A stretch of 64,000 bases of DNA from positions 1 to 64,000 of IMG/VR virus record IMGVR_UViG_3300017706_001340, one strand, 5' to 3'. Origin of the DNA: a virus. Of this stretch, positions 1-41,722 are shown in pieces. Position 1 is the first letter of the stretch, and the number at the start of each line of letters is the position of its first letter. The notes beneath the pieces were generated by a model, which was not told the origin of the DNA, made no database searches, and saw only the letters and a list, made by a program, of their open reading frames with translations. Both the position numbers and the translations under genes were made by a program.

Positions 1-204
1 GGAACATCCACATCAAATATATTGGCATCAGCATCGTTGTTATTCCCGTGTATGTAAAACTTGCCATCTGTTGTGTCGACTGTCAACTTGTCCAGTTCTG
101 TCGGAACATCCACATCAAATATATTGGATGTAGCATCATTATTACCTCCACTGACAAGAAATTTACCATCTGTTGTGTCAATTGTTACTTGATCTAGAAA
201 TGTA
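1..204 (-). repeat. 102-bp tandem repeat inside fibre-like gene
   Basis: Copies start at 1 and 103 (both begin GGAACATCCACATCAAATAT), so the period is 102 bp or 34 codons. The array enters from outside the window, so copy number is unknown. It keeps the reading frame and is a protein repeat. Confidence 0.8.
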
Positions 205-899
205 TGATCATTAACATGCAACCCACCTTCGATATAAATTGATCCACTTTTACCGGCATCTTTTTGATCTGATTGATCTGCAACTTCATAAGGATCTGGC
301 ACGACACTAACACTACCGACAAGAGTCATGCGTTGATTTGGCTGATCAATATCTTCCAAATTGCCTAAATTCACTCCGATCCATCCACCTAAATCGTTTT
401 GATTGTCTGCAGACCCTGTAATTAAGAAGGTTGAGGCACCGTCATTTTTAAAATGTACAATATCATTCGTACCATATTGATCAACGGTAAATGCTGCGGT
501 CATACCGTTTGTGTTGTCTGCTAAAACCTCAATTTCTGTAGCACTTTTGGCATGTACTTGAGTGTGCAGATATGTCAATTCACCGAGTGCAGTTAGATTT
601 CCAGTGATTGTAACATCCCCATCCACTAGCATGCTGTCCCTAAAAATATTCCAACCTATAGGGTTGAGAACCTCATAAGGTAAGTCCATTGTGTCTCTAC
701 TATTACTCTTTCCGAGGTTGCCGTTGTTAAAAGGATGTGTGTTGTTAGCACTAACAACGCCATTCAACACGAAATCACCAATGAATGGAAAGTCGTGACT
801 AGCTAGTGGGTCCAATCCACTATCTACAATGTGGGGACTTGGTAGTGTGTGATGATTAGCAGAGTGGAATTTATTGTGAAATTTTCTATTACCGGCCAT
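1..899 (-). CDS. Repeat-containing tail-fibre-like structural protein (partial, C-terminus outside window)
   Basis: The frame is open from an ATG at 899 to the left edge, 299 codons seen. The N-terminal part is Gly/Asn-rich and has a stretch around residues 90-100 (DVTITGNLTALGEL) typical of the beta-structured segments of phage fibre and appendage proteins. The part nearest the window edge consists of 34-residue repeats (102 bp) built around TTDGKF and NIFDVDVP, which probably continue beyond the edge. An exact late-promoter box TATAAATA lies 6 nt before the ATG. It follows two large virion-surface-type genes on the same strand. A tail-fibre or other virion-surface role is inferred from repeat architecture and position; no specific family is recognised. 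Confidence 0.6.
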   Translation of the reverse strand, partial: MAGNRKFHNKFHSANHHTLPSPHIVDSGLDPLASHDFPFIGDFVLNGVVSANNTHPFNNGNLGKSNSRDTMDLPYEVLNPIGWNIFRDSMLVDGDVTITGNLTALGELTYLHTQVHAKSATEIEVLADNTNGMTAAFTVDQYGTNDIVHFKNDGASTFLITGSADNQNDLGGWIGVNLGNLEDIDQPNQRMTLVGSVSVVPDPYEVADQSDQKDAGKSGSIYIEGGLHVNDHTFLDQVTIDTTDGKFLVSGGNNDATSNIFDVDVPTELDKLTVDTTDGKFYIHGNNNDADANIFDVDV

Positions 900-12686: not shown

Positions 12687-13354
12687 ACTAACACTTGATG
12701 TAGATCTTGTTTCTTAAAGCAACTGAGTGTTGAGTTTTTACTACAGTTTATAATCTCAATATCGTGTTGTTTGGCTTTATGTGACAGTTCAATCCAATTC
12801 GGTGTGTGATGTACTTCCGCATTTGGTAGGTTTATTCGATCCCCGGGTAGATAATACTCTTCAAACCAATGATCGTTTTCTTGCATTTTATCCTTAATAG
12901 TTACTTCATGACCGGTCGTACTACCTATGATTTTATTTTCGTAATTACAATCAACACCTAATAATATAATCTTTTGATAACCTAAACAAATTGCCACCTG
13001 TACCGCATTAACTCCAGAGTTACCACCATCATTAAAGTTCTTAAAATCTTCCACGCTACAATTCCACTTATTATTATTAACAAGAGTGACATTCGTGACC
13101 CTATCACTATCACTGACATGTCTTATAAAGAAAAATTGCTTTATCGGGTTAATATCTGTTGTCAGTTTCTTGAAACTATGTAAGTTAGATTTAGTAACCG
13201 TATAATCAAAGCAACCAAAGTACATTGGCCACCAATCTAATTTATAGTACATACGATATGCATTATTTAAACCGAATGTATGGTAACCGGTTAGGTCATT
13301 TAGATTGACATCTTTTAAAGATGGTCCGTTACCCATAATTATTGCTGTTTTCAT
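12683..13354 (-). CDS. MptE/DUF115-like putative glycosyltransferase
   Basis: 223 aa. The N-terminal AIIMGNGPSLKDVNL is the GNGPSL loop of DUF115 and sialyltransferase-like (GT42-type) proteins. YHTFGLNNAYRM, then NDGGNSGVNAVQVAICLGYQ and IILLGVDCNY follow, matching the usual D-G-x-T/N-A...A..LGx(K/Q)-I-LxGxD pattern. Such proteins are found in surface-polysaccharide loci and probably transfer a CMP-activated sugar, which fits the NeuA-like gene in the same operon. Activity is inferred. Confidence 0.65.
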   Translation of the reverse strand: MKTAIIMGNGPSLKDVNLNDLTGYHTFGLNNAYRMYYKLDWWPMYFGCFDYTVTKSNLHSFKKLTTDINPIKQFFFIRHVSDSDRVTNVTLVNNNKWNCSVEDFKNFNDGGNSGVNAVQVAICLGYQKIILLGVDCNYENKIIGSTTGHEVTIKDKMQENDHWFEEYYLPGDRINLPNAEVHHTPNWIELSHKAKQHDIEIINCSKNSTLSCFKKQDLHQVLV

Positions 13355-14037
13355 TATAAATTTCTAAACTGCTCCATTGAATTGTTGAAACATGCATTAA
13401 CACCCTCTCCATCACCCCAAGATCCATGTGTAGTGAACTCGGTGTTGTACCAGTAAGTTTTGAATCTATTTATACAAGTTGTACCAAGCCAGTGATCGAT
13501 CGGTTGGGTCACTGGTGATCGATCATCAAACTCTTGTATCAGTTTATCGCATGTATTATTATTAATGATATAGAAATCTGTACCCTTGTTGTTACCAGTC
13601 CACGGAAACACTTGAACATCGGTCATGTCATAAAACAATCTACCATCAATCATCTGCTTTGGTACTGGTACCGGCTTCTGTTTATAGAAAGGGAACACAC
13701 CACAATACATAATATCAGCATCCACCGGCATGTTTTCATTGATGATACACATATGTTCATCAAAATCATCGTGAAACACGCAATCATCTTCCATCACAAC
13801 ACCATAGGGCTCTCCGGATGATAAAATGGTGTTGTAGCAGTGAATGTGCTTGAGAAACAAGCTGATTTCTGCATCTGATATCTTCATGAACTTGTCGCGC
13901 TGTTGTTGAGTCAGTTCCTCACGATCATGATCATGTACAAAGTTCAAGGTAATATCACTCTGTAAATTGGTGGCTTGTTTGATGAACTGTATTTTACGTT
14001 CATCTAATGGTGTGTAGTGGCAGATGTTGAAAATCAT
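13354..14037 (-). CDS. Family 25-like glycosyltransferase
   Basis: 227 aa. Residues near 75-95 read GEPYGVVMEDDCVFHDDFDE, the EDD/E-D-D signature that marks GT25 (LOB1/LgtB-like) enzymes, preceded by SLFLKHIHCYNTIL, equivalent to the S-H..xW..i helix. A second acidic stretch and FTTHGSWGDGEGVN lie towards the C-terminus. Likely adds a hexose to an oligosaccharide acceptor. ATGA coupling to the upstream glycosyltransferase; base composition here is closer to the phage average than in the downstream half of the cluster. Confidence 0.75.
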   Translation of the reverse strand: MIFNICHYTPLDERKIQFIKQATNLQSDITLNFVHDHDREELTQQQRDKFMKISDAEISLFLKHIHCYNTILSSGEPYGVVMEDDCVFHDDFDEHMCIINENMPVDADIMYCGVFPFYKQKPVPVPKQMIDGRLFYDMTDVQVFPWTGNNKGTDFYIINNNTCDKLIQEFDDRSPVTQPIDHWLGTTCINRFKTYWYNTEFTTHGSWGDGEGVNACFNNSMEQFRNL

Positions 14038-14780
14038 TTTTTGCGAATGTGTTCTGACTCGGTGTCAACAATTAATTGCGGACAAATATATAGTTTGCCG
14101 CCCTGATCGGTTATACTTTTATTGAACGATACATGCTCACATTGTTCTCCATATGCTTCATTCCATCCACAATAAGCTGGTTGTATATAGTTCATCTTGT
14201 ATATAGCAGCACCATTGAATGCAGAGTAAACCGGAATTAAATCGGTGGTTTCGATGCTTATTTGATTCGCTGTGACAACTTCATTCACATCCCGACCTTT
14301 GAATCTTGATTCATGCCAACAATCATAATCAACCTTTCCGAACTGGTCATTGTCACAACGTAACGCCCATATGTCATAATAAGGCTTACTAATTGCAAGC
14401 AATCCAGCCCAATCAACATCTCTATATGTGGAAATCGCATCAGAAACACCATCAATCACCAAAGAACTTGCTGGTCCATCAAAGTCAACCATCAACACAT
14501 AATCATAACAACTGTATTTGTCCATGATCTTTCTAGCCAGAGTGTTTCTCGCATGCGCAATAGCGACCGTCCTGGTGACTTTATTTTTGATATGTTCACT
14601 TATCAATTTGATGTCACGCGATTGTATCAACTCCACGGTGTTATCAACAGAGTCGTTCTCATAAATCAATATCTCTGTATCGAAATATTTTTCTAGTTTC
14701 TTTAGGTTCTGATAGGCTGACAAGATATATCTTGCACCATTCTTAACTGTACCACAAACCAATATTTTTTCTCTAATCAT
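14034..14780 (-). CDS. Putative glycosyltransferase (CAP59/GT69-like)
   Basis: 248 aa. ILVCGTVKNGARYI and TEILIYENDSVDNTVELI form the typical donor-binding start, then VAIAHARNTLARKIM and VLMVDFDGPASSL give an Arg-rich helix and a DxD motif. FNGAAIYKM and YGEQCEHVSFN follow in the acceptor half. The order fits CAP59-like (GT69) or related GT-A enzymes. ATGA overlaps on both sides show it is co-translated with its neighbours. Substrates unknown. Confidence 0.65.
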   Translation of the reverse strand: MIREKILVCGTVKNGARYILSAYQNLKKLEKYFDTEILIYENDSVDNTVELIQSRDIKLISEHIKNKVTRTVAIAHARNTLARKIMDKYSCYDYVLMVDFDGPASSLVIDGVSDAISTYRDVDWAGLLAISKPYYDIWALRCDNDQFGKVDYDCWHESRFKGRDVNEVVTANQISIETTDLIPVYSAFNGAAIYKMNYIQPAYCGWNEAYGEQCEHVSFNKSITDQGGKLYICPQLIVDTESEHIRKK

Positions 14781-15589
14781 TTCGAATAGCCTGTAAAAAA
14801 TGTGGATTCATATCGATCTTCATCTTCTGGTATGTTCATGAACGCTCCGGCTGGAGTTCTCCGGAGCAACACACTCTTTAGATACTTGTCAAATATATTG
14901 AACGTTAGTCTATTCAGTGGTTTATTCGCGATCTTATGGTTGTAGACTCTCTCGGGCGCTTGTGTGTCCGTTTGCCATGTAGGTGCATGTTGAATATGAA
15001 AGCAATATGGTGGAAATTTGTTACCAATCTTATGTCCACCTGCAAATAGCTTCACTATCATCGCGTAGCATTGATCCCAACATGGTTGACCCACAAGAAA
15101 ATCGTCAAACAGGTCATTGTTCCGCAAATACCAGTCACGTTTGAACACAAACACATCAAATCCTGCAATCTCGTATCTCAACGCTGTCACCTTCTTGTCT
15201 ATCACCTGTTGAAATGACGTTACATCAGCAATATCGACCCGTGAGCAACAAAAACTGTCTGGATTGTTGTTCATGATGTATTTTATTATGTTTGGATTGA
15301 GTATCACATCACTGTTAACATAGATAAAGTAATCACATTCGATCTGTGACAAATGATTGAGTATGTCATTCACGAAAGGTAGCTGTTTGGTTGAACCTGA
15401 TATAACATCCTTGCTGCTTCTGGTCAACACGTCATGACATTTGACATCATACTTCGATATCATGTTGTTGAACTGAACATCAACAAAATCGACACAATCG
15501 AATTGCTTGGTAAGGTACACAAATGAATCGACACTTATATTCTGTCTGTTGTATCGACCAAAAGTATTTGTACCTATAACAATCTTCAC
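14777..15589 (-). CDS. Putative glycosyltransferase
   Basis: 270 aa from a GTG start overlapping the upstream stop as GTGA. KIVIGTNTFGRYNRQN at the start and CDYFIYVNSDVILNPNIIKY (DxD-like NSD) around residues 88-107 indicate a GT-A-type fold. FDVFVFKRDWYL and CWDQCYAMIVKLFAGG correspond to the acceptor side, and the HIQHAP motif is compatible with a late metal-binding His. No exact CAZy family can be given. It lies in the run of glycosyltransferase genes. Confidence 0.6.
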   Translation of the reverse strand: MKIVIGTNTFGRYNRQNISVDSFVYLTKQFDCVDFVDVQFNNMISKYDVKCHDVLTRSSKDVISGSTKQLPFVNDILNHLSQIECDYFIYVNSDVILNPNIIKYIMNNNPDSFCCSRVDIADVTSFQQVIDKKVTALRYEIAGFDVFVFKRDWYLRNNDLFDDFLVGQPCWDQCYAMIVKLFAGGHKIGNKFPPYCFHIQHAPTWQTDTQAPERVYNHKIANKPLNRLTFNIFDKYLKSVLLRRTPAGAFMNIPEDEDRYESTFFTGYSK

Positions 15590-16365
15590 GGTTTGATACT
15601 TTTTAGATACTCAACAACTTGTTCTTTTGTGTCGTTGATCTGCTCAGTACTACACACATTAACTCCGTAGCGCTCATGAAACAATTTGACACCATGTACA
15701 AAATTATCATGCCATTCCTCTTCATTTCTTATCTTGCTCTCCACCAATGATGGATCTTGATCACCAATCAACTTGTCACTCTCCGCAACATCAGCAAACC
15801 ATCTGAAGGGTGGGTGATGACCAGCGTTGATCACTCGCATGGTGTGATCCACATGCTCCATTGCATTTCTGTACTCATCATCCATCAAACCACACTCATC
15901 TATAACACTCTTGTGGTAATAACTCAGCGCACCGGTGACATTATGATACAACGCCATTTTGATATCCTTATAATCAATCACAAGCTTTGGAGCGGCTAGA
16001 TCAAGTCTCTTGTTAGCATCACCATGCAAACAAAAATTCAGATGCTTCACGCCACTAGCATCAGACAGCTTGATGTATTGATCAATCACATCATCAGTTA
16101 AAAACACTATATCATCTTCAACTAAAAACAAGTGTTCACATCCCAGATCAATCAATCGTCGTAGAGCTATGTTCTTGGATTCACCCACACCCACATTGGT
16201 TTCATTATGTATGGTGACATAATCACCACTCGGTACACTCTCCACGCCGTCATTCACGACAACGATGTGATCGATTTTATCTTTATGTGAATCGTGAATA
16301 GACTTGAAACATGACTCAAACATGGGCACCCTATCACACGTGATTATTGCAATTCCAATTGACAT
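15586..16365 (-). CDS. Glycosyltransferase family 2-like protein, first gene of sugar operon
   Basis: 259 aa from the ATG at 16365; upstream in-frame codons would precede the promoter. GIAIITCDRVPMFESCFKSI, then HIVVVNDG and NVGVGESKNIAL with CEHLFLVEDDIVF (E-D-D) give a clear GT2-type layout. A TATAAT box ends 6 nt before the ATG, so the whole operon (16365 to 8831) probably starts here with almost no leader. It is divergent from phoH. Confidence 0.7.
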   Translation of the reverse strand: MSIGIAIITCDRVPMFESCFKSIHDSHKDKIDHIVVVNDGVESVPSGDYVTIHNETNVGVGESKNIALRRLIDLGCEHLFLVEDDIVFLTDDVIDQYIKLSDASGVKHLNFCLHGDANKRLDLAAPKLVIDYKDIKMALYHNVTGALSYYHKSVIDECGLMDDEYRNAMEHVDHTMRVINAGHHPPFRWFADVAESDKLIGDQDPSLVESKIRNEEEWHDNFVHGVKLFHERYGVNVCSTEQINDTKEQVVEYLKSIKP

Positions 16366-16371
16366 ACATAT

Positions 16372-16377
16372 ATTATA
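16372..16377 (-). promoter_or_regulatory. -10 box TATAAT for the sugar operon
   Basis: Minus-strand TATAAT separated from the ATG at 16365 by ATATGT (6 nt). The -35 region is weak (TGGATT at 17 bp). Confidence 0.55.
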
Positions 16378-16398
16378 GTAAACAAACCCCATAAAATC

Positions 16399-16406
16399 CA
16401 TAAATA
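16399..16406 (+). promoter_or_regulatory. Late-type box CATAAATA, 6 nt before phoH ATG
   Basis: CATAAATA followed by TTACAA and the ATG at 16413. No Shine-Dalgarno. Confidence 0.65.
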
Positions 16407-16412
16407 TTACAA

Positions 16413-17171
16413 ATGACAAAACGTAGAGCTTCCTACAAGCGTTCCAATTCAAAAACTCGTAAGGATTCAGATATTGAAGACATACCCGAGATCGTAACAC
16501 GTAACACTATGGAGAGAAATTTCAAAATTGACTCCAAGTTTAAACTGACAGACACACACAAGAGTTTTGTTGAGTTATGTTTCAATAGTGAAACAAAGAT
16601 AGCATTCGTGGACGGACCGGCCGGTACAGCCAAAACATACTGTGCTGCTTATGCTGCGTTACATATGCTCAAATCACATAGGGTGGACGAGGTTGTGTAC
16701 ATTCGAAGCATTATAGAGAGTGCTAGCAAGAGCATGGGCGCCCTCCCGGGAGAAGTTGATGATAAATTTTTACCATGGACATTACCATTGCAAGAGAAAC
16801 TAAGTGAATTGATATCAAGCTCCACGATAAACACACTGTTCTCTACAAATACTGTCAAAGCAATACCAGTCAATTACGTACGTGGTTTGACGTTTAAAGA
16901 CAGTATGGTTATTGTTGACGAGGCTCAGAACTTAACCAAGAGTGAATTGATCACCATTCTCACACGCTTTGGTGAAGATAGTAAGATGCTAGTCATAGGA
17001 GACGCGTTGCAGAGTGACATAAATGGAAAATCTGGATTTGAAGAGATATACAACAAGTTCAATGATAGGGATAGTGAGGACAATGGCGTTTTTTGCTTCA
17101 AATTCACAGAAGATGACATACTTCGCAGTGAAATGCTCAAATTTATAGTAAAGAAGCTAGGACAGAAATAA
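16413..17171 (+). CDS. phoH: PhoH-like ATPase
   Basis: 252 aa. Walker A is GPAGTAKT at residues 68-75, and Walker B is VIVDEAQN near residue 166-173, followed by FGEDSKMLVIGDALQSDI, the arginine-finger/sensor region of PhoH proteins. A basic 35-residue N-terminal extension (KRRASYKRSNSKTRKDSD) precedes the core. PhoH-like genes are common in marine phages; the protein is a cytoplasmic P-loop ATPase with proposed RNA-related roles, unproven in phages. The late-type box 6 nt upstream is notable for a gene often thought of as early. Confidence 0.85.
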   Translation: MTKRRASYKRSNSKTRKDSDIEDIPEIVTRNTMERNFKIDSKFKLTDTHKSFVELCFNSETKIAFVDGPAGTAKTYCAAYAALHMLKSHRVDEVVYIRSIIESASKSMGALPGEVDDKFLPWTLPLQEKLSELISSSTINTLFSTNTVKAIPVNYVRGLTFKDSMVIVDEAQNLTKSELITILTRFGEDSKMLVIGDALQSDINGKSGFEEIYNKFNDRDSEDNGVFCFKFTEDDILRSEMLKFIVKKLGQK

Positions 17172-17711: not shown

Positions 17712-18416
17712 CTATTTATACATCTTCAACTCATCTTCCGAGTTATCCGCGTCACTAACAACTGGCATGCCGAATTGATCATACAGCGTGCTAGTGTCAA
17801 CGAGTGTTTCGTCTTCTCCGTACATACCACCTTTTTCATTGACGTAAAACTCAATCATCTTGATTCTTTCATCTGTTGAACCAAAGATCTCAATCAAAGC
17901 ACTTCGATCTTCCTTTGGAAAGAATCTTTCATCTTCCTTGCTCCAATTAGTGTACATCGCTTTGAAAAAATTGTCAATTTCAGATATGAATTCAGCATCT
18001 GTCTCTCTCTTGCCGTCATCCTCTATTTGCTCATCAGTCACATTCGTGATCGGGATGATAAAAATTATATCCAACAATTTCATCGATTCTCTAACAACCG
18101 GTATACACTTCTCTACAAACAATTCATCAATATCTCCGATGCCTTTGTGATATGCCCATAATGTGTACACGATATTATCCAACGGACACCTATCAAATAT
18201 CACATGATCACTTGCTGAATAATTCTCCATTTGATCAATCATGTGATTCAGGATATTCCATTGTGTCTCTTTGGTGGTCTTCATACTATGAGATTGCTCT
18301 GGAAGTTTGACACGATATGACTCCTCAGGAGTTTTATACATCTCCCAGTTGGTCAAGAAAGCATTCAATAATGTTGTTTTGCCTTGTGCAGCAGTACCGG
18401 AAATAGATAGTCTCAT
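17712..18416 (-). CDS. P-loop kinase/AAA_28-like ATPase (NadR/thymidylate-kinase-like)
   Basis: 234 aa. Walker A GTAAQGKTT at residues 7-15 and the VIFDRCPLDNIVYTLW motif (DRxxxD) around residues 73-88 follow the layout of NadR-type and dNMP-kinase-like P-loop proteins (AAA_28). Such proteins occur in T4-like phages as unassigned ATPases. It may phosphorylate a nucleoside or nucleotide; substrate unknown. A TGTAAATA box lies 5 nt before the ATG. The TAA stop forms part of the late box of the next gene. Confidence 0.65.
   Translation of the reverse strand: MRLSISGTAAQGKTTLLNAFLTNWEMYKTPEESYRVKLPEQSHSMKTTKETQWNILNHMIDQMENYSASDHVIFDRCPLDNIVYTLWAYHKGIGDIDELFVEKCIPVVRESMKLLDIIFIIPITNVTDEQIEDDGKRETDAEFISEIDNFFKAMYTNWSKEDERFFPKEDRSALIEIFGSTDERIKMIEFYVNEKGGMYGEDETLVDTSTLYDQFGMPVVSDADNSEDELKMYK
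17713..17720 (-). promoter_or_regulatory. Late promoter TATAAATA, 10 nt before ATG at 17702
   Basis: Exact consensus on the minus strand, overlapping the last codons of the kinase-like gene. The predicted leader is about 5 nt. Confidence 0.65.
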
Positions 18417-18449: not shown

Positions 18450-19232
18450 CTACACACCTGTGAGCTTGTCCCAAGCACTGACATGTAACCTGGTCAAACC
18501 AATATAACCATATTTTTTCGCCATATCTAAACTGAATTTGGTTCTCTCGTGAAAATCTTTCTGACTATCCAGACCTGGCATCATCATCACTCGATCATGT
18601 GGAATGTTGAATTTGTTTACAAAATCACGCTCTATTTCCTCCAGACACTCCTCAGTACTGATCACAAACTTGAACCAATAGTTCTTATGACTCATCATTT
18701 TCTCAATTGCCGCCGGATTGATTCTGCGTTGTGCTTCCATTCCACTATTTGCTAGCTTGACACTACAGTTTATCTGATCAAGCATATCAAACAATTCATC
18801 TTGAATCACTATAGTACCGTTAGTTTCGATCTCATCAAATGTATTGAGTTCGATATCATGTTCATCTTTCACGTATTGCTCGAGATGCTTGCTGAACGCC
18901 GGGATCGCGCGTTGATGTTTAGGTATTGTAGGTTCTCCACCTGTCCAGATCAAGTGTATTCTACCCTCGTATATCCACTTGTCTATCTCTTCATGTTCCC
19001 ATTGTTGAATGAGTTTATAAAAAGGTTTCTCTAAACCTCGCTTCCATACAGCTTCAGTATCACACCACCAGGTTGCCTTTCCTTCCTTGACAAGAGAACC
19101 ATTAGCTCCTCCGCACATCAAGTTACACGCTTTGAGTCTTATAAAATATGCTGGATACCCGGTTGTGTGTCCTTCGCATTGCACAGAGTAGAAACTCTCT
19201 GAAATATCTAGTGTTGTTGGTTGTTTGTCCAT
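18450..19232 (-). CDS. queE: 7-carboxy-7-deazaguanine synthase QueE (radical SAM)
   Basis: 260 aa from the ATG at 19232 (TAATG overlap with queD, GGGGA 6 nt upstream); an ATG at 19244 would add four residues. The start matches QueE: SVQCEGHTTGYPAYFIRL then KACNLMCGG with the first iron-sulfur cysteines C-x3-C, and WWCDTEAVWKRG with the third cysteine separated by 16 residues. WTGGEPTIPKHQ is the GGEP SAM-binding motif. It converts 6-carboxytetrahydropterin to CDG, the third step of preQ0 synthesis. The cysteine spacing differs from CxxxCxxC but resembles known QueE variants with a long insertion. Confidence 0.85.
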   Translation of the reverse strand: MDKQPTTLDISESFYSVQCEGHTTGYPAYFIRLKACNLMCGGANGSLVKEGKATWWCDTEAVWKRGLEKPFYKLIQQWEHEEIDKWIYEGRIHLIWTGGEPTIPKHQRAIPAFSKHLEQYVKDEHDIELNTFDEIETNGTIVIQDELFDMLDQINCSVKLANSGMEAQRRINPAAIEKMMSHKNYWFKFVISTEECLEEIERDFVNKFNIPHDRVMMMPGLDSQKDFHERTKFSLDMAKKYGYIGLTRLHVSAWDKLTGV

Positions 19233-19840
19233 TATAGTCCCCATGTGTTGGTGGATTTAGGGTCCACCCATTTGTTTGTTAGTTTTGTTTTGTTTGTGTT
19301 CACTTGCACTCCATCATTTACTGGAGGATTTTCTTTGATAGCCTCATTGCCTTGGTCCCATTGTTGAGTGATTTTATCCGCAACATCCTTGAGATAATCA
19401 TGTTGTGGTTTCACCTCATAAATCGCTGAGTTGTTTTCATGTTCGAATACCTCCACTTTGGTGCAATTACACCTCCCATCAGTCAATTCATCAACATAAT
19501 TATCTGCAACCGTGTGACAATACTCAGCAAACTTCTCGATACCCACACCATTCATAATTCTCAAATCACACACTCCTTTCTCATTTAACTTCTTGAAAGA
19601 ATCCAACTCAGAGTCGGACTCAGAGATACATGTTGTGTGATCGAATTGCTTTTGCATCAACATCTTGAGACCTTTAAGACCACCGAAATCGACAACCCAA
19701 TTGTTATTATCTAGGCTTCGTGCAGTGAACCAAAACTTGGCAGTTAATCTATAACCATGAAGAAACTTACAATGTGAATCTGCTTGAGGTTGTCTGAACG
19801 CGCAGCTACCTAATTCTATTATCTTTGTACTGGTAAACAT
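19232..19840 (-). CDS. queD: 6-carboxytetrahydropterin synthase QueD with C-terminal extension
   Basis: 202 aa. SCAFRQPQADSHCKFLHGYR carries the catalytic Cys region and zinc-binding His residues; WVVDFGGLKGL and KQFDHTTC supply the DFG..K and D-H pair. EVFEHENNSAIY holds the E near the substrate end. It makes CPH4 from dihydroneopterin triphosphate. Usual QueD proteins are about 120-140 aa; the last 50-60 residues here are polar (NPPVNDGVQVNTNKTKLTNK) and end in VDPKSTNTWGL. The promoter has TATAAT 6 nt before the ATG. Confidence 0.85.
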   Translation of the reverse strand: MFTSTKIIELGSCAFRQPQADSHCKFLHGYRLTAKFWFTARSLDNNNWVVDFGGLKGLKMLMQKQFDHTTCISESDSELDSFKKLNEKGVCDLRIMNGVGIEKFAEYCHTVADNYVDELTDGRCNCTKVEVFEHENNSAIYEVKPQHDYLKDVADKITQQWDQGNEAIKENPPVNDGVQVNTNKTKLTNKWVDPKSTNTWGL

Positions 19841-20131: not shown

Positions 20132-20328
20132 TCTTGTTTCTTATCGATAATCTCGATCGCATCTGGAATCATCCGAGCTTGATCCTTGGTTAGTGTGATG
20201 ATGAATCCATCATCATCACGTATTTGTATTTTATCCTTTGACTTATTATAAACCTCCGGACACCGTTTACTGCCACAGCATAATACAACGCTGTTGCTCT
20301 TTGAGTTGTGCTTTAGATCACGTTTCAT
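20128..20328 (-). CDS. Small hypothetical protein with CCGSKRCP motif
   Basis: 66 aa. Three cysteines in VVLCCGSKRCPEV suggest metal binding or a reactive pair, followed by a KDKIQIRDDDGFIITLT beta-hairpin-like segment. It overlaps both neighbours by 4 nt, so it belongs to the operon from 21830. I recall related short proteins in marine phages, but no assigned role. Confidence 0.55.
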   Translation of the reverse strand: MKRDLKHNSKSNSVVLCCGSKRCPEVYNKSKDKIQIRDDDGFIITLTKDQARMIPDAIEIIDKKQE

Positions 20329-20756
20329 AATTCCTCGACCTGTATTATTGTCAATTCTCCAGTTGAACCATCAAACCTAGGAGAGATGTTTGTGACAAAA
20401 TCATTCTCAACATTACCCTGCTGGTCAATCATTTTGACTTGAGCGGATTTTTTGTTTGTCACTATGTTGAACGTTTTGTCATTCTCACTTCCTGTCAAGA
20501 TCGCTCCTCCGTCACCATCGTCACTATCAACTGATTTCAAATTTATCAGATGCGAAAGATCCGCTCCACGACCAGGCTTTTGTAAGAACACTTTGACATT
20601 TTTCAATCCGTTGAATGATGTACCACCTATTGTATCAGGTAGTGCCTCTCTTGTGGCACTTGGCAGCTCACGTTCCACTATCAATCCAGGACTAACCTTC
20701 GAGTAACACTCGAAAAGATTATTAAAATCATTATCATATCTACCAAATCTCTTCAT
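20325..20756 (-). CDS. Hypothetical protein, probable head-associated
   Basis: 143 aa with an ATG start. It begins MKRFGRYDNDFNNLFECYSK, with an LFE site that could be a prohead-protease cleavage point. Downstream it has a GlyThr-rich middle and short beta-like segments (TFNIVTNKKSAQVKMIDQQG) and ends ELTIIQVEEL. It is co-transcribed with the adenylyltransferase-like gene. No family recognised. Confidence 0.5.
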   Translation of the reverse strand: MKRFGRYDNDFNNLFECYSKVSPGLIVERELPSATREALPDTIGGTSFNGLKNVKVFLQKPGRGADLSHLINLKSVDSDDGDGGAILTGSENDKTFNIVTNKKSAQVKMIDQQGNVENDFVTNISPRFDGSTGELTIIQVEEL

Positions 20757-20758: not shown

Positions 20759-21406
20759 CTATTCACCGACATACAATCTAACGCTTGTCATCCTTGCATG
20801 TTCAGATTTATTTAGTGCATCAACAAGATCATATGTATCTTTGACTGGACTCGGACTGGATCGCTTGATGATTAGATCATCTGGACCCTTGCCTGTTAGA
20901 TTCATCAATAAAACACTGTACAATTGCCATATTCTCATTGTTTGATCTATGGTTATATGACCGTATCCAGAATTACCGATGTCATTGCTCTGCATGAGTA
21001 TTGAATATACTTCATCTTTGTCAACTCCATCGGGTATATTCTTAGCGATTGTGTTTTTATCTTTTATTGAAATTGCTGCTCTGAATGCTGTTGCACTAGT
21101 CATTCTCGCAACGCCAGCAGTTCGCACTCCGAGTAAATTATCAGAATACTTATCTGATTTTAGTATGTTTGAATATCTCGCGGAATCTGGGACCTCTTTG
21201 GTGTTACCCTTGTTTTGTGTTGATAGTGGTCTTGACTTATCTGACACAAAAATGTACACCTTCTCATTGTTTTTACATGCATCATATGCAGTTGCGTAAT
21301 GACCTATATGAGGAGGCTTGAACGCTCCGGGGAATATACCTACATTATAAACATTTTGATCCTGCTCAGTGATCAATTGTTTGTATACTCTATCGAAGTT
21401 TTTCAT
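20759..21406 (-). CDS. Cytidylyltransferase-fold protein (NMN adenylyltransferase-like) with head-targeting-like leader
   Basis: 215 aa from the ATG at 21406; an ATG at 21415 adds three residues. GIFPGAFKPPHIGHYATA carries the (H/T)xGH motif of nucleotidyltransferases of the NadM/RibF type, VYIFVSDKSRP follows, and MTSATAFRAAIS is equivalent to the ISxTxxR motif. This predicts adenylyl or cytidylyl transfer, perhaps to nicotinamide mononucleotide; the exact substrate is not shown. The first 14 residues, MKNFDRVYKQLITE, resemble T4 capsid-targeting leaders with an (I/L)-x-E end, so the enzyme may be packaged. Late promoter at 21837. Confidence 0.65.
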   Translation of the reverse strand: MKNFDRVYKQLITEQDQNVYNVGIFPGAFKPPHIGHYATAYDACKNNEKVYIFVSDKSRPLSTQNKGNTKEVPDSARYSNILKSDKYSDNLLGVRTAGVARMTSATAFRAAISIKDKNTIAKNIPDGVDKDEVYSILMQSNDIGNSGYGHITIDQTMRIWQLYSVLLMNLTGKGPDDLIIKRSSPSPVKDTYDLVDALNKSEHARMTSVRLYVGE

Positions 21407-21830
21407 GTTTGACATAATCTCTATACATATTTAGTACACCAACTGGATCACATCCACAGCCTTTGAGAAGGTTTTCTAATTGCGTAACATCTGTAGCGTT
21501 GATAATATCATTCATATTATCTGAAATTTTATCATGATAACCTCTAACCATCAGATAATCTACGACATGCTTCTTGAAACCTGATAAAGGATCTTGCTGT
21601 GCTTGTTGACATGGACTCTCTGCTTCGTATTGATCTGGTCCTAAGGACATTGTGTCACCATCCACACCTGGCACGATAGCGATCACATTTCCTAATCCAT
21701 CTTCCTCGAGTACGTACCCGACATAATCATTCATTTCATCCAAACCATTGGCTGGATCATGTTTGATCCGGATCCTTGTGAGATTTGTTTTGTTGAGATT
21801 AGACTCTAATATTGTGTTGAATCTAGACAT
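21390..21830 (-). CDS. Hypothetical head-associated protein
   Basis: 146 aa, starting MSRFNTILESNLNK, another leader with a possible ILE cleavage site. The first half has small beta-type strands (DYVGYVLEEDGLGNVIAIVP, likely an SH3-like barrel) and the second half helices with CGCDP. It is first in an operon of five genes to 19865 under a late box (AATAAATA) 6 nt upstream. Function unknown. Confidence 0.55.
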   Translation of the reverse strand: MSRFNTILESNLNKTNLTRIRIKHDPANGLDEMNDYVGYVLEEDGLGNVIAIVPGVDGDTMSLGPDQYEAESPCQQAQQDPLSGFKKHVVDYLMVRGYHDKISDNMNDIINATDVTQLENLLKGCGCDPVGVLNMYRDYVKHEKLR

Positions 21831-21836: not shown

Positions 21837-21844
21837 TATTTATT
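21837..21844 (-). promoter_or_regulatory. Late promoter AATAAATA, 6 nt before ATG at 21830
   Basis: Minus strand AATAAATA, then TTTTAT, then ATG. No Shine-Dalgarno. Confidence 0.7.
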
Positions 21845-21888: not shown

Positions 21889-22929
21889 ATGACTGATGAA
21901 TCAAATAATTATGAGTGGTTAGGTGATGATGAACTAACTGGTGAAAAGGATAGCATAGCTAGAAGTATCATGGGTGAAGAGTATAGCAAGGGATATGCAT
22001 CACCAATACGAGTATATGACACTAAAGTCAATGCAGATAAAGAATATATATCATCTTTACCGGATTTACAGAACGGTCCATCTAGTTTGATACAGGGCGC
22101 TCCAGTACCCATTCAGCAAGTAGGTATACATAATTTTAAATTACCATTGACATATAAAAAGAGGAGTGGTAAAACAATCGAGCTTGAAACAAGTGTGACA
22201 GGCAGTGTGAGTTTAGAGGCACATAAGAAGGGCATCAACATGTCTCGCATCATGAGAAGCTTTTACAATCATAAAGATGAAGTGTTCAACATTGATAAGA
22301 TAAAGGATGTACTAGAGTCATATAAGAAAAATTTAATGTGTTTTGACTCGCGAATCATGCTGAAAATATCATATCCGATACGTCAGAAGAGTTTACGGAG
22401 CGGTCTTGAAGGTTTTCAGTATTATGACGTTGTGTTCGAGGGTGACTTGACCAAGGATGGAGAGTTTAAGAAGTATATACACTTTGATTTTGTATATTCT
22501 TCAGCATGCCCATGTAGTTTTGAACTAAGTGAACATGCAGAGAAATATCGAAATCGTGCGACTGTGCCACACAGTCAGCGTAGTGTTGCTCGTGTTAGTG
22601 TCAAGTTTGATGACATGCTCTGGATTGAGGATGTACAGGAATTGTGTCTTGCGGCATTACAGACCGAGACACAAGTGATGGTCAAGCGGGAAGACGAGCA
22701 AGCATTTGCAGAGTTGAATGGCTCATCATTGAAGTTTGTTGAGGATGCAGTCCGATTACTGTATGAGAAGTTGAACAACGAACCTAGGATCAAGGATTTT
22801 AAGATTGTTGCATCACACAATGAAAGTTTGCATAGTCATAACGCGATTTCTGTGATCGTCAAGGGCATACAAGGTGGTTTCTCCGGTGGAGTTGCGAGAG
22901 ATGTGTTCGAGACAACAGGATTGAGATGA
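21889..22929 (+). CDS. folE2: GTP cyclohydrolase FolE2 (type IB)
   Basis: 346 aa. The family pattern is clear: SLPDLQNGPS at residues 50-60, PVPIQQVGIHNFKLPL, SLEAHKKGINMSRIMRSF, SSACPCSF with C207-P-C209 in the active-site loop, and SHNESLHSHNAIS near the C-terminus. FolE2 converts GTP to dihydroneopterin triphosphate, the first step to preQ0 (and folate). Phages more often carry the unrelated FolE, so this version is notable. An N-terminal extension of about 45 acidic residues precedes the core. With queD, queE and queC it completes the pathway. Confidence 0.9.
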   Translation: MTDESNNYEWLGDDELTGEKDSIARSIMGEEYSKGYASPIRVYDTKVNADKEYISSLPDLQNGPSSLIQGAPVPIQQVGIHNFKLPLTYKKRSGKTIELETSVTGSVSLEAHKKGINMSRIMRSFYNHKDEVFNIDKIKDVLESYKKNLMCFDSRIMLKISYPIRQKSLRSGLEGFQYYDVVFEGDLTKDGEFKKYIHFDFVYSSACPCSFELSEHAEKYRNRATVPHSQRSVARVSVKFDDMLWIEDVQELCLAALQTETQVMVKREDEQAFAELNGSSLKFVEDAVRLLYEKLNNEPRIKDFKIVASHNESLHSHNAISVIVKGIQGGFSGGVARDVFETTGLR

Positions 22930-23770: not shown

Positions 23771-24046
23771 ATGTCAAATACATCAAAAGATGAGAATCTC
23801 ATGCTAGAGCAGGCTTATATGAGAGTATATGAAGCTAGAATGTCTCAAATTGAGTCTGATGAGAGTGTGGAGGAATCTACTGACGAGGAGCCTGAGAATG
23901 ACAAGATGGCAGCAGCAGTAGCAGTACAGCAAACAGCTGATCAGGTTGAGGATGAAGGTGGAGAGATGACTCAGCAACTACAGAAGGCCAAGCAAGAGTC
24001 TGAAAAGTATGTAAGTAAGAAGATAAGTCAGTTCAAGAAGGACTAA
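23771..24046 (+). CDS. Small acidic late protein
   Basis: 91 aa. It begins MSNTSKDENLMLEQAYMRVY, containing an LEQAYMRV helix shared in style with other likely head proteins here (for example LLSEAYTSM). The middle is strongly acidic (SDESVEESTDEEPEND), then Ala/Gln-rich and a charged C-terminal helix. Late box 5 nt upstream. It is one of the few plus-strand late genes in this part. Possible internal head or scaffold-type protein; function unknown. Confidence 0.6.
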   Translation: MSNTSKDENLMLEQAYMRVYEARMSQIESDESVEESTDEEPENDKMAAAVAVQQTADQVEDEGGEMTQQLQKAKQESEKYVSKKISQFKKD

Positions 24047-25371
24047 CGACTAAACTTCAGACTTCCTAGTATTTGATTCACTGGTGCAAATATCCCGGTG
24101 AACTTATAGATCTTAGGTTTAGATTCACCGTCAGGTGTGTATGTAAACGTCAAACCTTCACTTGGAACGATAGTGTCTAAACCACCTAACTTATTTATCA
24201 TCTTCAATTCATGTTGTAGTTTGTTCATCAACGTTAAATCACCAGTGGCTTCAATCTCTCTTGTGACTTCTTCAATGCCTTGTCTTATCTCTTGTACAGC
24301 CTGTGAGGGATTCAATGTGAGAAGATTTGATATGTTGTTGTTCAACTCAACACCAAGCTTGAGAAACAACGCTTTGAGCGGTTCGATCATGTTATTGTAG
24401 TGTGTTTTGAGTTCCCCACTACGTTCTGTTGCACTTATCCATTGTAAAAATTCTTTGTTATCAACAATGCCTTTAAGTTCCGGCAACCGGCTAAGTGCTA
24501 CGGAATTGTAATCGCTAGGCCTTTTACCGGGTGTCAACATCTTGAATGCCCACCTATATGCGATACGTCTCAACGTGTCTTGTTGAACATTGTAACCAAA
24601 TTCACGCGCTCCATTCTGTATAACATTACTCATGTAACTAATCCAGTAGTCTCCTACGTTGTTGCTAGGATTTAGTTTATGCTCACCCATCAAACCACTC
24701 AGTATACCCATATACTCACCTATAGTTGTCTCAAAATTCTTAACTTCCGGTAACTTCATCAGCGGCATGCTCGTGATTGTGAACTTATCTTGTACGTGTT
24801 GGTTGATTTGCTCGATCATACCCGCCATCATGCGACCATATTCATTGAAATCACCATCTAAAGTGTTGCCATCCTCGTCATATTCTCGGAAGTTGTGTAA
24901 AACGATCAATTCATGGTTATAAGGTATGACATTCACTGTGGCTGGCCAGATTATCTCAATGTTGATCCACCTCTTACCGTCCGCGAACAACAATTGCTTC
25001 TGTCGGTCGCTCAAAGCCATGATAGCCTTCTCTAGATCCTTGGCTGCAAACGTGAACGCTTCTTTCACGTTGTCATTTGGATGTTCTCTGAAGAATTCTG
25101 CAATACCTTTGGCTCCTTTTATAGCATTCTTACCAAAACCACGATAATGTCCTTTGTTACGAGCGAATATCACGCGATTGGCACGATGACTCACTGCTAA
25201 TGCTTGTCCATCGGTCTTTTCTTTGATCTCTCCTTTGATTCCACCGGTCAACGCTTGTTTGATGATGCGTTGCAGGTCTTCGAACTGTAAAGTGTAGTCT
25301 TCATGCACGTTCATCATATGGCCATATGCTCCACCTTCTTCTATCACTCTGTTGTATGTTTTAAAGTTCAT
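24043..25371 (-). CDS. Nucleotidyltransferase/RNA-ligase-like protein with capsid-targeting-like leader
   Basis: 442 aa. It begins MNFKTYNRVIEEGGAYGHMM. K52-T-D-G55 in EIKEKTDGQALAV matches motif I (KxDG) of covalent nucleotidyltransferases (DNA/RNA ligases, capping enzymes), followed by RVIFARNKGHYRGFG (motif Ia-like) and WINIEIIWPATVNVI (motif IIIa-like E). Related proteins with MNxKxFxEEGGxYGH and KxDGxxL occur in marine T4-like phages. The leader ends in VIE|E, like T4 head-protein leaders. It could be a virion-carried ligase or an inactive derivative; a clear motif V (KxK) was not identified. Confidence 0.6.
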   Translation of the reverse strand: MNFKTYNRVIEEGGAYGHMMNVHEDYTLQFEDLQRIIKQALTGGIKGEIKEKTDGQALAVSHRANRVIFARNKGHYRGFGKNAIKGAKGIAEFFREHPNDNVKEAFTFAAKDLEKAIMALSDRQKQLLFADGKRWINIEIIWPATVNVIPYNHELIVLHNFREYDEDGNTLDGDFNEYGRMMAGMIEQINQHVQDKFTITSMPLMKLPEVKNFETTIGEYMGILSGLMGEHKLNPSNNVGDYWISYMSNVIQNGAREFGYNVQQDTLRRIAYRWAFKMLTPGKRPSDYNSVALSRLPELKGIVDNKEFLQWISATERSGELKTHYNNMIEPLKALFLKLGVELNNNISNLLTLNPSQAVQEIRQGIEEVTREIEATGDLTLMNKLQHELKMINKLGGLDTIVPSEGLTFTYTPDGESKPKIYKFTGIFAPVNQILGSLKFSR

Positions 25372-25372: not shown

Positions 25373-26896
25373 TTAATTGTTCAATTTAATTGTAAATCCA
25401 CCGCGACCAGGCTCTCCTGCTTTTGCACCAGTGCTAGCACCAATACTGGCATTAGACATCATGAGAACATTAAACGATTTGATTATATTATCACCATATT
25501 CACCGGTCATCATTATTGGATATGTATTAGTATAATTCTCACCGGGTACCTCACACATAGCCGCATAATACGCAAAACCCTCCCCGACAGCATAATCAGT
25601 GATCTGTATCGCACTTAATATACGTAGACCTATCTCTGTGATATGTGTTTGTTGTAATAAGTTATCATGAATAGCTGAACTCAGTATCTTCGATATTGCA
25701 CCCTTCGCGTGTTTTGGTTTACTTGCCATCTTAGAGAGATCAGTAGCGAACGCATCTTGCATCTTTATATCTGTTTTAAATTTTCCGAACCCATATTTTG
25801 ATAGATATGATGAGACGAAGCCAGCACCACCGGTCGGCTTTGATGTACGTGCTCTTAGTGTCTGTTTTATATGATTAAATTTTGTTATGATATCTTCTAG
25901 ATAACCAGCTTTATTATCTACTGTTATTGCATCTATAATCTTCTTGTTATACACTGCCTTGCCACTCAGTTGTTTAGTTATTTTGTTAGCCATCTCTAGA
26001 ATCTCATTATAGTCACAGCAATCAGATCGCTGTAATCGTTGATATATATCCTTCAGTGCTTTATGTACATCCGGTCTGCTTATATAATATGGGTATATGA
26101 CTGAAATATCTCGCATCACCGGTTCTTTTATCTCAAATATCTCATTCTGTCTTCTATTTTCATCAAAATCATCAAAGCGCTTCATGGCGTATTGTTCGAA
26201 CTTACTTGCTCTACCAACCACATCTCCCTTCCCGGGTCTGCCGGCAGCTCCCTTAAGCTCGATCTCTTCACCAGAAGGTAACATCAAGTCACCCTTCTTC
26301 GGGTTAACAGCTTCAGTAAATAAAGTTATTAACACTTCTCCATTACCTACACCGACATTACCTTCAGTGAAATCACTCAACGTGACTAGTGATTTTATAA
26401 ACTCTGCATTACCAATCATCGGCATTGTACTTCCAAACTGATTTACAAATTCATTTATAATATTGAATCTATCTCTCTTCACAAGTGATGTTAAAACCCT
26501 GAGATTCTTGCTCTCTTTTAACTCAATAAGCTCATTAACCTCACTGGTTATTCTATCCACGATACTTATATCGTTGAGATCATACATCGTATCTAACCTC
26601 TCAACTATTCCTGTAGGTATAGCCTTCCTTGCAGTAGCACTATCCCATCCACCAGACGCACACCACCTACCAAACAACTCCGGTAATCTCAACTTAGCTT
26701 CATGCGCACCTAATGATAATGCTAAGTCATCTGACATTTTAAATTTTTGATCTTTTAATTTAGAATCATCAAACTTTATTCCAATTGTAGCCTCGTTTAT
26801 CACCTTATTATATAGGTCCTGTTCACGCTCTGGGTGAGTGTAATGATCTCCTCTTCTAATACCTTTGTAGATATCACCTATCTCCCTGTTACTCAT
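25373..26896 (-). CDS. Large conserved head-associated protein, possible PD-(D/E)XK motif
   Basis: 507 aa with an ATG start in TAATG overlap with the upstream gene. The first 34 residues end LYNKVINE|ATIG, matching an (I/L)-x-E cleavage site, although this leader is longer than in T4. Around residues 195-220 the segment KKGDLMLPSGEEIELKGAAG has the D-x(n)-E-x-K spacing of PD-(D/E)XK nucleases. The rest is helical. Expressed with the 115-aa protein and the KTDG protein from the late box at 27249. Nuclease activity is only a hypothesis. Confidence 0.5.
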   Translation of the reverse strand: MSNREIGDIYKGIRRGDHYTHPEREQDLYNKVINEATIGIKFDDSKLKDQKFKMSDDLALSLGAHEAKLRLPELFGRWCASGGWDSATARKAIPTGIVERLDTMYDLNDISIVDRITSEVNELIELKESKNLRVLTSLVKRDRFNIINEFVNQFGSTMPMIGNAEFIKSLVTLSDFTEGNVGVGNGEVLITLFTEAVNPKKGDLMLPSGEEIELKGAAGRPGKGDVVGRASKFEQYAMKRFDDFDENRRQNEIFEIKEPVMRDISVIYPYYISRPDVHKALKDIYQRLQRSDCCDYNEILEMANKITKQLSGKAVYNKKIIDAITVDNKAGYLEDIITKFNHIKQTLRARTSKPTGGAGFVSSYLSKYGFGKFKTDIKMQDAFATDLSKMASKPKHAKGAISKILSSAIHDNLLQQTHITEIGLRILSAIQITDYAVGEGFAYYAAMCEVPGENYTNTYPIMMTGEYGDNIIKSFNVLMMSNASIGASTGAKAGEPGRGGFTIKLNN

Positions 26897-27888: not shown

Positions 27889-28476
27889 TTATTTATATAC
27901 CATACCCTTAATCTTCACACTATTAGTATAATGTTGATCAAGATATTTTAGTTTGTATTTTGACGTGAATTTTTTAAATTTCTCCATGTTACATGGATGT
28001 ATTCTTGTTTGTTTGATATCACATATCATCTCCGTATACTTGCCCTTGTTGTTATTATAATATTGTATGAATGTGTTGAATTTGACCGGAGCTACGAAAA
28101 CACGTAGAGGTAGTATATTTTTTATTTGCTTCAGATAACGACTCATGAATTGTATGAACTCTGGTCTTGTGTCTCTCGTGGTACCCTTCCTTGTGCGTTG
28201 ATTCTCACACTTCTTGAAGTCACACTTGATGTCCTTGTCGCTAAAATATGTCACAATCCTGTTGTCTGTGTTGATGGTAGACACTGTATCACATAATGTT
28301 TTAGTGATGTGATAGTAATATATCACCTTTGTGTCTTGAGACCTTATATTATAATCATTAAACTTGTCATATGTATACAAATCTTGTACGATTTGCTTGT
28401 ATGCATCATGAAACACATACTCAAAGTTTAGTAGATATAAATTATGATTGTTGAGCTCAACATGCCTTAGTTGCAT
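27889..28476 (-). CDS. Hypothetical protein
   Basis: 195 aa with an ATG start; rich in Tyr, Lys and Asn, with several Cys (DFKKCENQRTR, CDIKQTRIHPCNMEKFKKF). No recognised motif. It lies 16 nt downstream of the resolvase-like gene and may share its transcript. No Shine-Dalgarno is clear. Role unknown. Confidence 0.5.
   Translation of the reverse strand: MQLRHVELNNHNLYLLNFEYVFHDAYKQIVQDLYTYDKFNDYNIRSQDTKVIYYYHITKTLCDTVSTINTDNRIVTYFSDKDIKCDFKKCENQRTRKGTTRDTRPEFIQFMSRYLKQIKNILPLRVFVAPVKFNTFIQYYNNNKGKYTEMICDIKQTRIHPCNMEKFKKFTSKYKLKYLDQHYTNSVKIKGMVYK
27890..27897 (-). promoter_or_regulatory. Late promoter TATAAATA, 5 nt before ATG at 27884
   Basis: Exact consensus on the minus strand then ACAGT and ATG; overlaps the 3' end of the upstream gene. 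Confidence 0.7.
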
Positions 28477-28994: not shown

Positions 28995-29002
28995 TATTTA
29001 CA
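28995..29002 (-). promoter_or_regulatory. Late-type box TGTAAATA, 4 nt before ATG at 28990
   Basis: Minus strand TGTAAATA then CAGT and ATG; overlaps the stop of the upstream 90-aa gene. Confidence 0.5.
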
Positions 29003-29270
29003 TACTTGTATCGAAAGGTCTACGTTGTGTTGGTATCAAAACATCTAAACTACCATCCTTTTTCTTGGTTTTTTTAGATTTACGCTTGTCTTTCTTACCA
29101 CCTGTAGGTGTTCTCATGTCTCCAGGTGCATAAAAATCTGTGACTGGTGTGACAGCACCTCCATTACCCATGCTCCCTGCATCACCAAACACACCACCAG
29201 CACCTGCTGAATTGTCTTCTGATATATGCTTCATGAAGCATGTTTTATAATAATTTGTTTGCTTTTCCAT
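28998..29270 (-). CDS. Small head-type protein with ISE leader and Gly-rich segment
   Basis: 90 aa from the ATG at 29270. It begins MEKQTNYYKTCFMKHISEDN and continues SAGAGGVFGDAGSMGNGG, then a basic KKDKRKSKKTKKKDG tail segment. The ISE|D site and the following SAGAGG fit a processed internal head protein, and similar leader-plus-SAGAGGVFG proteins are known to me from marine T4-like phages. ATAAATA lies 14 nt upstream. Role unknown; the basic tail could bind DNA. Confidence 0.6.
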   Translation of the reverse strand: MEKQTNYYKTCFMKHISEDNSAGAGGVFGDAGSMGNGGAVTPVTDFYAPGDMRTPTGGKKDKRKSKKTKKKDGSLDVLIPTQRRPFDTSM

Positions 29271-29282
29271 TGAATGTATACT
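29255..29282 (+). promoter_or_regulatory. Sigma-70-like promoter for uvsY operon
   Basis: TTGTTT (29255-29260), 16-bp spacer, TATACT (29277-29282). It is followed by a GGAG Shine-Dalgarno at 29292-29295, 8 nt before the ATG at 29304. Unlike most promoters here, it leaves a normal leader. Confidence 0.5.
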
Positions 29283-29303
29283 ATTATTTATGGAGTCACT
29301 TGC

Positions 29304-29699
29304 ATGAAACAATTAGAAGAATATATTAAAGAGATGGGTAAAGATGTCGATCTCGATGAATTCAATTTAAAAGAGTCACAACTGAAGCTACCTGCTATCA
29401 AGCATAAATGGGTTGGTAGGTTGATCAGGCATAAGAACGAATTGGAGAGATACAATACAAATAGAGATAACATGATCAAACAGATCGCTCAAGAAGTGAT
29501 CGATCAAGCAACATATCAAGTAACACTATTAACTGCTCAGAAGGCGGCTGAAAAACACCCAAGTATCAAGCAAATAAACGACTCAATACGTGAGCAAAAA
29601 TTGATAATAGAGTTCTTGGAGAAAGGTGAGAGAATTTTTGGTGGAATGGGATTCGATATTAAGAATATTATAGAAATAATGAAGCTCGAGACACTATGA
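29304..29699 (+). CDS. uvsY: UvsY-like recombination mediator
   Basis: 131 aa from the ATG at 29304 with GGAG at 8 nt; T4 UvsY is 137 aa. It has the pattern of UvsY: N-terminal helix with LEEYIKEMGKDVDLDEFNL, HKWVGRLIRHKNELERY equivalent to the WLNKH segment, and a C-terminal EFLEKGERIFGGMGFDIKNI equivalent to the SRGFAIKHI end. UvsY helps load UvsX on gp32-covered ssDNA. Overlaps uvsW by 4 nt (ATGA), and gp55, gp47 and gp46 follow. Confidence 0.75.
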   Translation: MKQLEEYIKEMGKDVDLDEFNLKESQLKLPAIKHKWVGRLIRHKNELERYNTNRDNMIKQIAQEVIDQATYQVTLLTAQKAAEKHPSIKQINDSIREQKLIIEFLEKGERIFGGMGFDIKNIIEIMKLETL

Positions 29700-41713: not shown

Positions 41714-41722
41714 ATGTGTTAT

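Follow-up and report, generated by a model that had tools for sequence, protein, structure and literature searches.

A nucleotidylyltransferase gene on the minus strand of a viral record carries the three segments of its catalytic domain in the order A-C-B, where its in-order relatives have A-B-C, and this looks like a non-circular permutation. The window, by which we mean the whole 64,000-nucleotide stretch analysed, comes from an 87,769-base IMG/VR virus record that contains a T4-type terminase and, as judged by eye, a tail-sheath gene. Our joint reading, to which we give a probability of about 70%, is that of a permuted A-C-B nucleotidylyltransferase of marine T4-like phages, delivered by the head and pairing with a KxDG ligase-like cargo. 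The rearranged segment order is an unusual feature that the initial annotation of this DNA overlooked. It is the new, testable point here; packaging is plausible and has precedents. The gene and its parts are as follows.

20759..21406, minus strand: segment-swapped nucleotidylyltransferase gene, 215 amino acids plus stop; an open reading frame with its start set from relatives, nine other loci and purifying selection
21365..21406, minus strand: leader, residues 1-14, ending LITE, with a predicted prohead-protease cut before Q15; F4 and E14 invariant (n=9)
21227..21364, minus strand: segment A (residues 15-60: beta1, HxGH helix, beta2); residues 9-59 match positions 11-58 of the in-order profile, 53.8 bits
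21296..21328, minus strand: GAFKPPHIGHY, HxGH nucleotide-binding motif, residues 27-37; GAFKPPH.GH invariant (n=9); Pfam PF01467
20984..21187, minus strand: segment C (residues 74-141), second here and last in in-order relatives; profile positions 114-175, 29.2 bits
21080..21100, minus strand: TSATAFR, SxTxxR-type motif, residues 103-109; S104, A105, A107 and R109 invariant (n=9), T or S at 106
20762..20959, minus strand: segment B (residues 150-215, its end placed by eye), last here and normally in the middle, with SPVKDTYDLV; residues 151-200 match positions 61-103

This is a real gene under purifying selection. The protein is also encoded at nine further loci, with 40-75% identity to the window protein. 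One of these, L035, was dropped, its protein being identical to that of L034, so that the counts below refer to nine distinct sequences, the window's included, in ten records; all A-C-B members are metagenome contigs. Comparison of the window gene with that of relative L001 gave a pN of 0.16 and a pS of 0.85, and the close pair L009/L033 a dN/dS of about 0.09. In its longest form the open reading frame begins at 21415 (MSNMKNF...). This MSNM start was discarded and 21406 preferred, because L001 has no such upstream extension. The initial annotation had the gene at the same place on the minus strand, with 215 codons plus stop and the same start.

By its sequence the protein belongs to the HxGH-superfamily nucleotidylyltransferases, slightly above the Pfam cut-off: CTP_transf_like matches roughly the first hundred residues with 21.8 bits, the cut-off being 21 (the 218-residue form was searched). 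NCBIfam TIGR00125 scores 29.3 bits against 27.7 over residues 22-63, and 26.9, slightly under the cut-off, on L001. The second motif reads SA[TS]A.R in all nine distinct sequences. The nucleotidylyltransferase fold and the two signature motifs already proposed for this gene are thus borne out by Pfam and TIGR00125, and also by the AF2 model and the structure matches described below.

The segment order was read with a profile of 12 in-order relatives, which finds A, C, B in 9/9 distinct family members. An earlier run of the same profile had given three pieces in all seven members searched, in the order ~1-59, 114-175, 60-104 in at least five of them. Segment B is matched with 15.7 bits in the window protein and with 21.8-31.7 in the other eight; shuffled tails (n=990) never exceed 6.7 bits, whereas the genuine C and B pieces score 12.1-31.7. 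Held-out relatives were in order A-B-C in 17 cases out of 17, as far as matched: L029, L031 and L032 match in two pieces, L013 ends after B, and L018, L022 and L026 are close to profile rows. Outside both the 12 profile rows and the 17 held-out relatives are L025 (same protein as L024), L030 (cut), and L037, L039, L040 and L043 (near-copies). A second profile (A4), which is not independent of the first as 11 of its 14 rows are common to both, gives A, C, B in 10/10 records, and places segment C at positions 116-176. With A4, B ends at 100-115 and C starts at 111-117, and the cut therefore falls just after the strand ending GE.

The motifs tell the same order. Distant phage relatives found by the family-profile search read GAFKPPHxGH (A), next SAEESxxVWxxY and the SPVKxTYD of B, and finally SATxxR (C), whereas the window family has the part with SATAFR in second place and that with SPVKDTYD at the end. 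Aligned by hhalign, the permuted and in-order families match with an E of 9.4e-31, only with C skipped (a 90-residue gap). The canonical segment order of the HxGH superfamily is therefore not found in the window protein, which is a sequence relative with this feature changed. As a consequence of the A-C-B order, profile searches mainly catch the first part of the protein.

An assembly artefact was discarded because nine distinct sequences all show the A-C-B order, and the eight besides the window's are 40-75% identical to it. Circular permutation was discarded as well, A-C-B being no rotation of A-B-C. The simplest and probable route is a tandem duplication of B-C in a canonical A-B-C gene, after which the first B and the last C were lost. 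No intermediate (A-B-C-B-C or similar) was found, and scans with both neighbour genes returned only contigs already known. Searched by tblastn against 50,697 phage records, the window protein had no match at E 0.01, and the L001 protein only weak matches, up to E 10; a scan of the genome contig collection confirmed no relative. The open literature that we searched held no precedent for a permuted or segment-swapped nucleotidyltransferase. To our knowledge, non-circular segment swaps have rarely been seen within a catalytic domain that has in-order relatives for comparison.

The AF2 model of the window protein (pLDDT 87.2, pTM 0.82, from an alignment of nine family sequences only) has the elements beta1-alpha1-beta2, then those of C, then B as helix-strand-helix-strand. 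VIA-align superposed model residues 19..215 on 1gn8_A 1..90 (88 residues, 2.2 A, Z 6.0) and residues 19..142 on 5ts2_F 0..158 (104 residues, 3.1 A, Z 5.8). These are our "A+B" and "A+C" readings, taken from the first and last residues and the lengths that the aligner reports, and a Z near 6 is weak if taken alone. The best Z values were 6.8 for PPAT and 5.8 for NadM, both for partial matches, and none of the 50 matches listed joins 19..215 to a full-length PPAT. If A is common to the two partial PPAT matches, B and C are each placed correctly relative to A. From these two superpositions, the three segments are predicted to pack into a canonical PPAT/NMNAT-like fold with the two motifs side by side.

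Sequential whole-chain comparison by Foldseek gave a TM of 0.20-0.22 and an rmsd of 14-15 A to most PPATs (TM 0.20 to 1gn8_A), and no more than 0.36 to NadM; searched against the viral model library, the model had a best TMq of 0.39 and nothing matched at E 0.001 or below. As a control, we modelled residues 1-170 of the L014 protein, which is in order (pLDDT 86.4, alignment of 14). This model fits 1gn8_A over 143 residues, 16..170 onto 1..158, at 3.0 A (Z 14.2, TM 0.65), and a full-length match of an in-order relative to PPAT reaches Z 14.6.

The initial annotation had predicted a head-targeting leader, and this prediction has indirect support from its conserved end and from relatives. The sequence LITE and the Q that follows it are residues 11-15. 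The leader ends in [LI]xE in eight of the nine sequences and in FYE in the ninth, and AF2 makes residues 2-17 a helix with a pLDDT of ~64. Residues 1-14 diverge faster than the body of the protein in 9/10 pairs compared. A terminal [LI]xE is a general rule for sites of the T4 prohead protease. The leader has the form of a T4 propeptide, with 10-20 N-terminal residues, a Glu at the end and L or I two residues before it. Excerpts of published work describe T4 propeptides of 10-20 residues (PMC5694885) and a T4 capsid targeting sequence that needs 10 residues, with targeting depending mainly on residues 4 and 7 and processing on residues 8 and 10; LIE-9 is there said to fit the T4 cleavage logo (PMC9026906).

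One family record out of ten, L033, holds both a Peptidase_S77 protease (E 2.9e-27) and a Gp23 capsid protein (E 7.6e-97), the latter with LKE at the expected place in its N-terminal arm, as judged by eye. Neither was found in the nine other records, which are fragments and include the window's (87.8 kb) and G008 (98 kb). Relatives fused to a second domain, described below, have LxE at their joints. Among the minus-strand ORFs of 17.0-29.4 kb in the window, 9/18 have [LI]xE at residues 8-20, versus 11/63 ORFs elsewhere; the motif occurs in ~14% of internal stretches, and at least that of the QueD-like ORF is probably due to chance.

Published proteomes bear on the same point. NMNAT-like proteins are listed for the virions of S-CBWM1, S-SZBM1 and S-SCSM1, and a cytidyltransferase is discussed among the virion-associated proteins of S-CREM2, in passages of PMC10665884; the S-SCSM1 protein is also mentioned in a passage of PMC9602691. 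The S-CBWM1 virion protein is without such a leader. Against the claim that packaging would set this gene apart from NAD-pathway genes, usually expressed in the cell, stand these cyanophage proteins, already reported in virions. Packaging of the window protein in the phage head is plausible by analogy, because of its T4-like leader, the protease and capsid protein of L033 and the cyanophage virion proteins. In analogy with the T4 internal proteins, the 14-residue leader ending in [LI]xE would carry the enzyme into the prohead and be removed there by the T4-type protease of the phage, and the processed enzyme would enter the cell alongside the DNA.

Two further proteins of the window bear on heads and leaders. 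The part of a small protein (28998-29312, minus strand) that follows HISE, starting with D, resembles the N-terminal arm of the group's major capsid protein (72% over 25 residues with that of L052, E 1.4e-8), and is possibly a capsid-arm mimic. The protein encoded at 25373-26896 (minus strand) has its first ~43 residues in common with proteins of L001 (3242-4327), L005, L009 and L034, the remainder being widely different: with L009 the match is confined to these first 43 residues and one 40-residue stretch, and with L001, L005 and L034 identity is 26-29% over the first 225-241 residues. The bodies are PD-(D/E)XK-like by eye, and a constant leader with changing cargo is also found in T4 internal proteins. 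Pfam gave nothing for the L001 relative of this leader-swapped gene.

The gene adjoins two neighbours on the same strand, both with leader-like starts.

21390..21830, minus strand: upstream neighbour, starting MSRFNTILE, overlapping the gene and conserved with it in relatives
21837..21844, minus strand: box AATAAATA, of the form [AG]ATAAATA, 13-15 nt before the start of the upstream neighbour
20325..20756, minus strand: downstream neighbour, starting MKRFG...LIVE, a conserved adjoining gene

The [AG]ATAAATA box stands before the neighbour's start in the window and in 7/7 relatives examined (L033 and L035 are outside this count). We take it to resemble the T4 late promoter. The co-directional run around the gene includes deoxynucleoside-kinase-like and QueD-like genes. 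A shared late operon had been proposed; the neighbour overlap, the co-directional run and the late-promoter-like box bear this out only in part. Over the window, TATAAATA occurs at 14 sites against 6.2 expected (e.g. 17713-17720, 27890-27897, 56414-56421), and 0/100 shuffles reach 14. If one mismatch is allowed, 24/81 ORF starts have such a box in the 60 nt preceding them, many at 11-18 nt; these boxes are either a late promoter or an AT-rich initiation signal.

Elsewhere in the window, genes at 18450-19840, 21889-22929 and 41714-42436 encode FolE2 (GCHY-1), a QueD-like PTPS and QueC of the deazaguanine route, together with a QueE-like protein assigned by eye and without Pfam match; L001 has a FolE-like ORF (6773-7417, by eye) at the place of the window's FolE2. 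This set of genes suggests modified DNA. Genes that look by eye like sugar-nucleotide or glycosyltransferase genes follow one another over 9129-16500 (minus strand); the three of them that were searched gave a CTP_transf_3 cytidylyltransferase, an HMGL-like protein and a sub-threshold NTP_transf_3 match.

A candidate partner of the enzyme is encoded about 3 kb away.

24043..25371, minus strand: KTDG ligase-like protein of 442 amino acids with the leader MNFKTYNRVIEE, followed by GG; relatives are fused to an in-order nucleotidylyltransferase

We call it ligase-like from the motifs KxDG, EG..F and YK. The label rests on these motifs because the PDB profile search with the KTDG family gave nothing meaningful; Pfam likewise gave nothing for the KTDG proteins, and two PHROGs without assigned function each matched one KTDG member. 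Fusions to the nucleotidylyltransferase are observed with the ligase-like part first in L010, L027 and L028, and last in Microcystis phage Mel-JY01. To count them, we took the best 80 of the 441 KTDG loci confirmed among the first 600 candidates. Among these best 80, 38 ligase-like ORFs contain GxFxP..GH, always ahead of the ligase-like part, compared with none in 229,931 residues of other ORFs (six-frame ORFs, many of which are not genes). Of the 80 ORFs, 54 run off a contig end; 25 of the 26 complete ones also have the GxFxP..GH motif or a profile match. In the same best 80, [LIVMF]xE directly precedes 65/79 ligase-like domains, the joints of the 14 others ending in M, not E. That the two domains occur fused in either order and also split speaks for their working together, with LxE sites parting them. 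The sequences thus suggest that the swapped nucleotidylyltransferase and the separately encoded KxDG ligase-like protein form a pair. In L011, L024 and L045 (Flavobacterium phage immuto), an in-order nucleotidyltransferase is found behind a polymerase-beta-like domain in large multidomain proteins; this domain is Pfam DNA_pol_B_palm in L024 and was recognised by eye in L011 and L045, and L024 has a polynucleotide-kinase-like part in addition.

The enzyme most likely still transfers AMP or CMP, taken from an NTP, to a small phosphorylated acceptor, because the modelled canonical fold puts both motifs side by side. The initial annotation took the acceptor to be NMN, and an NMN adenylyltransferase that uses NMN and ATP to form NAD+ in the infected cell, packaged or not, would agree with the best named profile matches of the family, all weak, which are of the NadR and NadD types and of one phage NMNAT family, with Foldseek putting NadM and NadD first for an in-order relative, with the NMNAT annotations of cyanophage relatives, which are similarity-based, and with a NUDIX gene at 35674-36036. 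Every equivalog score is however far under its cut-off (22.9 bits at best against 201 for the NadR/NadD/NadM profiles, and nowhere near the cut-off for the PPAT models). PPAT structures match at least equally well and rank first when the in-order relatives are used for the profile search, PPAT and NMNAT structures being both partial matches for the window model, and NAPRTase (PF04095, NadV family) was matched in none of 12 records, none of which is known to be complete. Since no NMNAT, NadR or PPAT equivalog nears its cut-off, NMN as substrate is a guess, and we hold this reading to be unlikely. It could also be that the permuted domain is catalytically dead and has a nucleotide-binding or structural role in the head: the permutation may disturb the ATP site, and the T of SxTxxR is replaced by S in 4/9 sequences. 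With HxGH invariant, SA[TS]A.R kept in all nine and a low pN/pS, a dead enzyme is somewhat less likely still.

The leader and the position of B each allow another interpretation. If the leader were an ordinary N-terminal helix and its [LI]xE fortuitous, the enzyme would stay in the infected cell; the background of the motif in comparable internal stretches, the unspecific character of a low-pLDDT helix and the nucleotide-metabolism genes among the co-directional neighbours would all fit. It is nevertheless an improbable account, on a par with the NMN one, given that E14 and F4 are invariant in a stretch that diverges faster than the body, that the minus-strand ORFs around the gene are enriched in [LI]xE, and that parts of the published record report NMNAT-like proteins in virions. 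As for B, its position after C at the chain end means that the connecting linker could reach a neighbouring subunit, and the model is monomeric; in such an intertwined dimer, B of one chain would complete the partner's fold, the halves being canonical in space but shared. AF2 puts B with A in one chain, with a block pLDDT of 91-97 (78 in its final five residues), and many alignment rows fit the A+B reading to a single PPAT subunit at 2.0-2.4 A, which makes sharing between chains distinctly unlikely.

We therefore return to the head-delivered, permuted enzyme, which would probably act with the KxDG ligase-like cargo, as the fusions suggest. A bolder extension, in which we place little trust, is that the two proteins form an injected nucleic-acid repair kit, where cofactor is remade or ends are prepared; if true, the kit could remake the ligase cofactor, for instance by turning released NMN and ATP into NAD+. 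The finding links marine phage nucleotidyltransferases, a numerous and little-understood set, to a head-targeting leader and a ligase-like partner, and these ties make the function of virion-carried enzymes testable.

Among known systems, the T4 internal proteins IPI-III resemble the window protein in having a short N-terminal leader, which in T4 is removed by the prohead protease, and a conserved leader before diverse cargo (passages of PMC3012670 and PMC9026906); they differ in that the cargo here is a predicted enzyme whose targeting and cutting are only predicted. Injected multidomain proteins have been described, in part of PMC5512222. PPAT (CoaD, e.g. 1gn8) has the superfamily motifs in common with the window protein, and 88 residues of the model fit 1gn8_A 1-90 at 2.2 A, but PPAT is A-B-C and there is no sequential full-length match. 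NadM and NadR of phages are described, along with NadV, in a section of PMC9503650; NadM, NadD and NadR are alike to the window protein in their HxGH and SxTxxR-type motifs and give the best weak profile matches; the window protein stays under all their equivalog cut-offs, has another order, and has no NAPRTase partner in the record fragments. Closer in setting are phrog_395, a cyanophage cytidyltransferase family that matches the window protein weakly and over ~52 residues only (E 1.4e-6, no strong full-length match), and the S-SCSM1 protein QFG06348, a phage nucleotidylyltransferase annotated as a virion protein, with a leader ending LxE (MKSFLQFLKE, then A); QFG06348 has in-order segments and is longer, 409 amino acids with further regions. 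The in-order marine relatives (L014, L017, L037 and others, and Flavobacterium phage immuto) share the GxFKPPxxGH-type motif, in many cases SPVKxTYD, and in several a leader ending LLLE, but are A-B-C and often part of large multidomain proteins. As both orders thus exist within one phage protein family, the folding, stability and catalysis of A-B-C and A-C-B enzymes can be compared directly.
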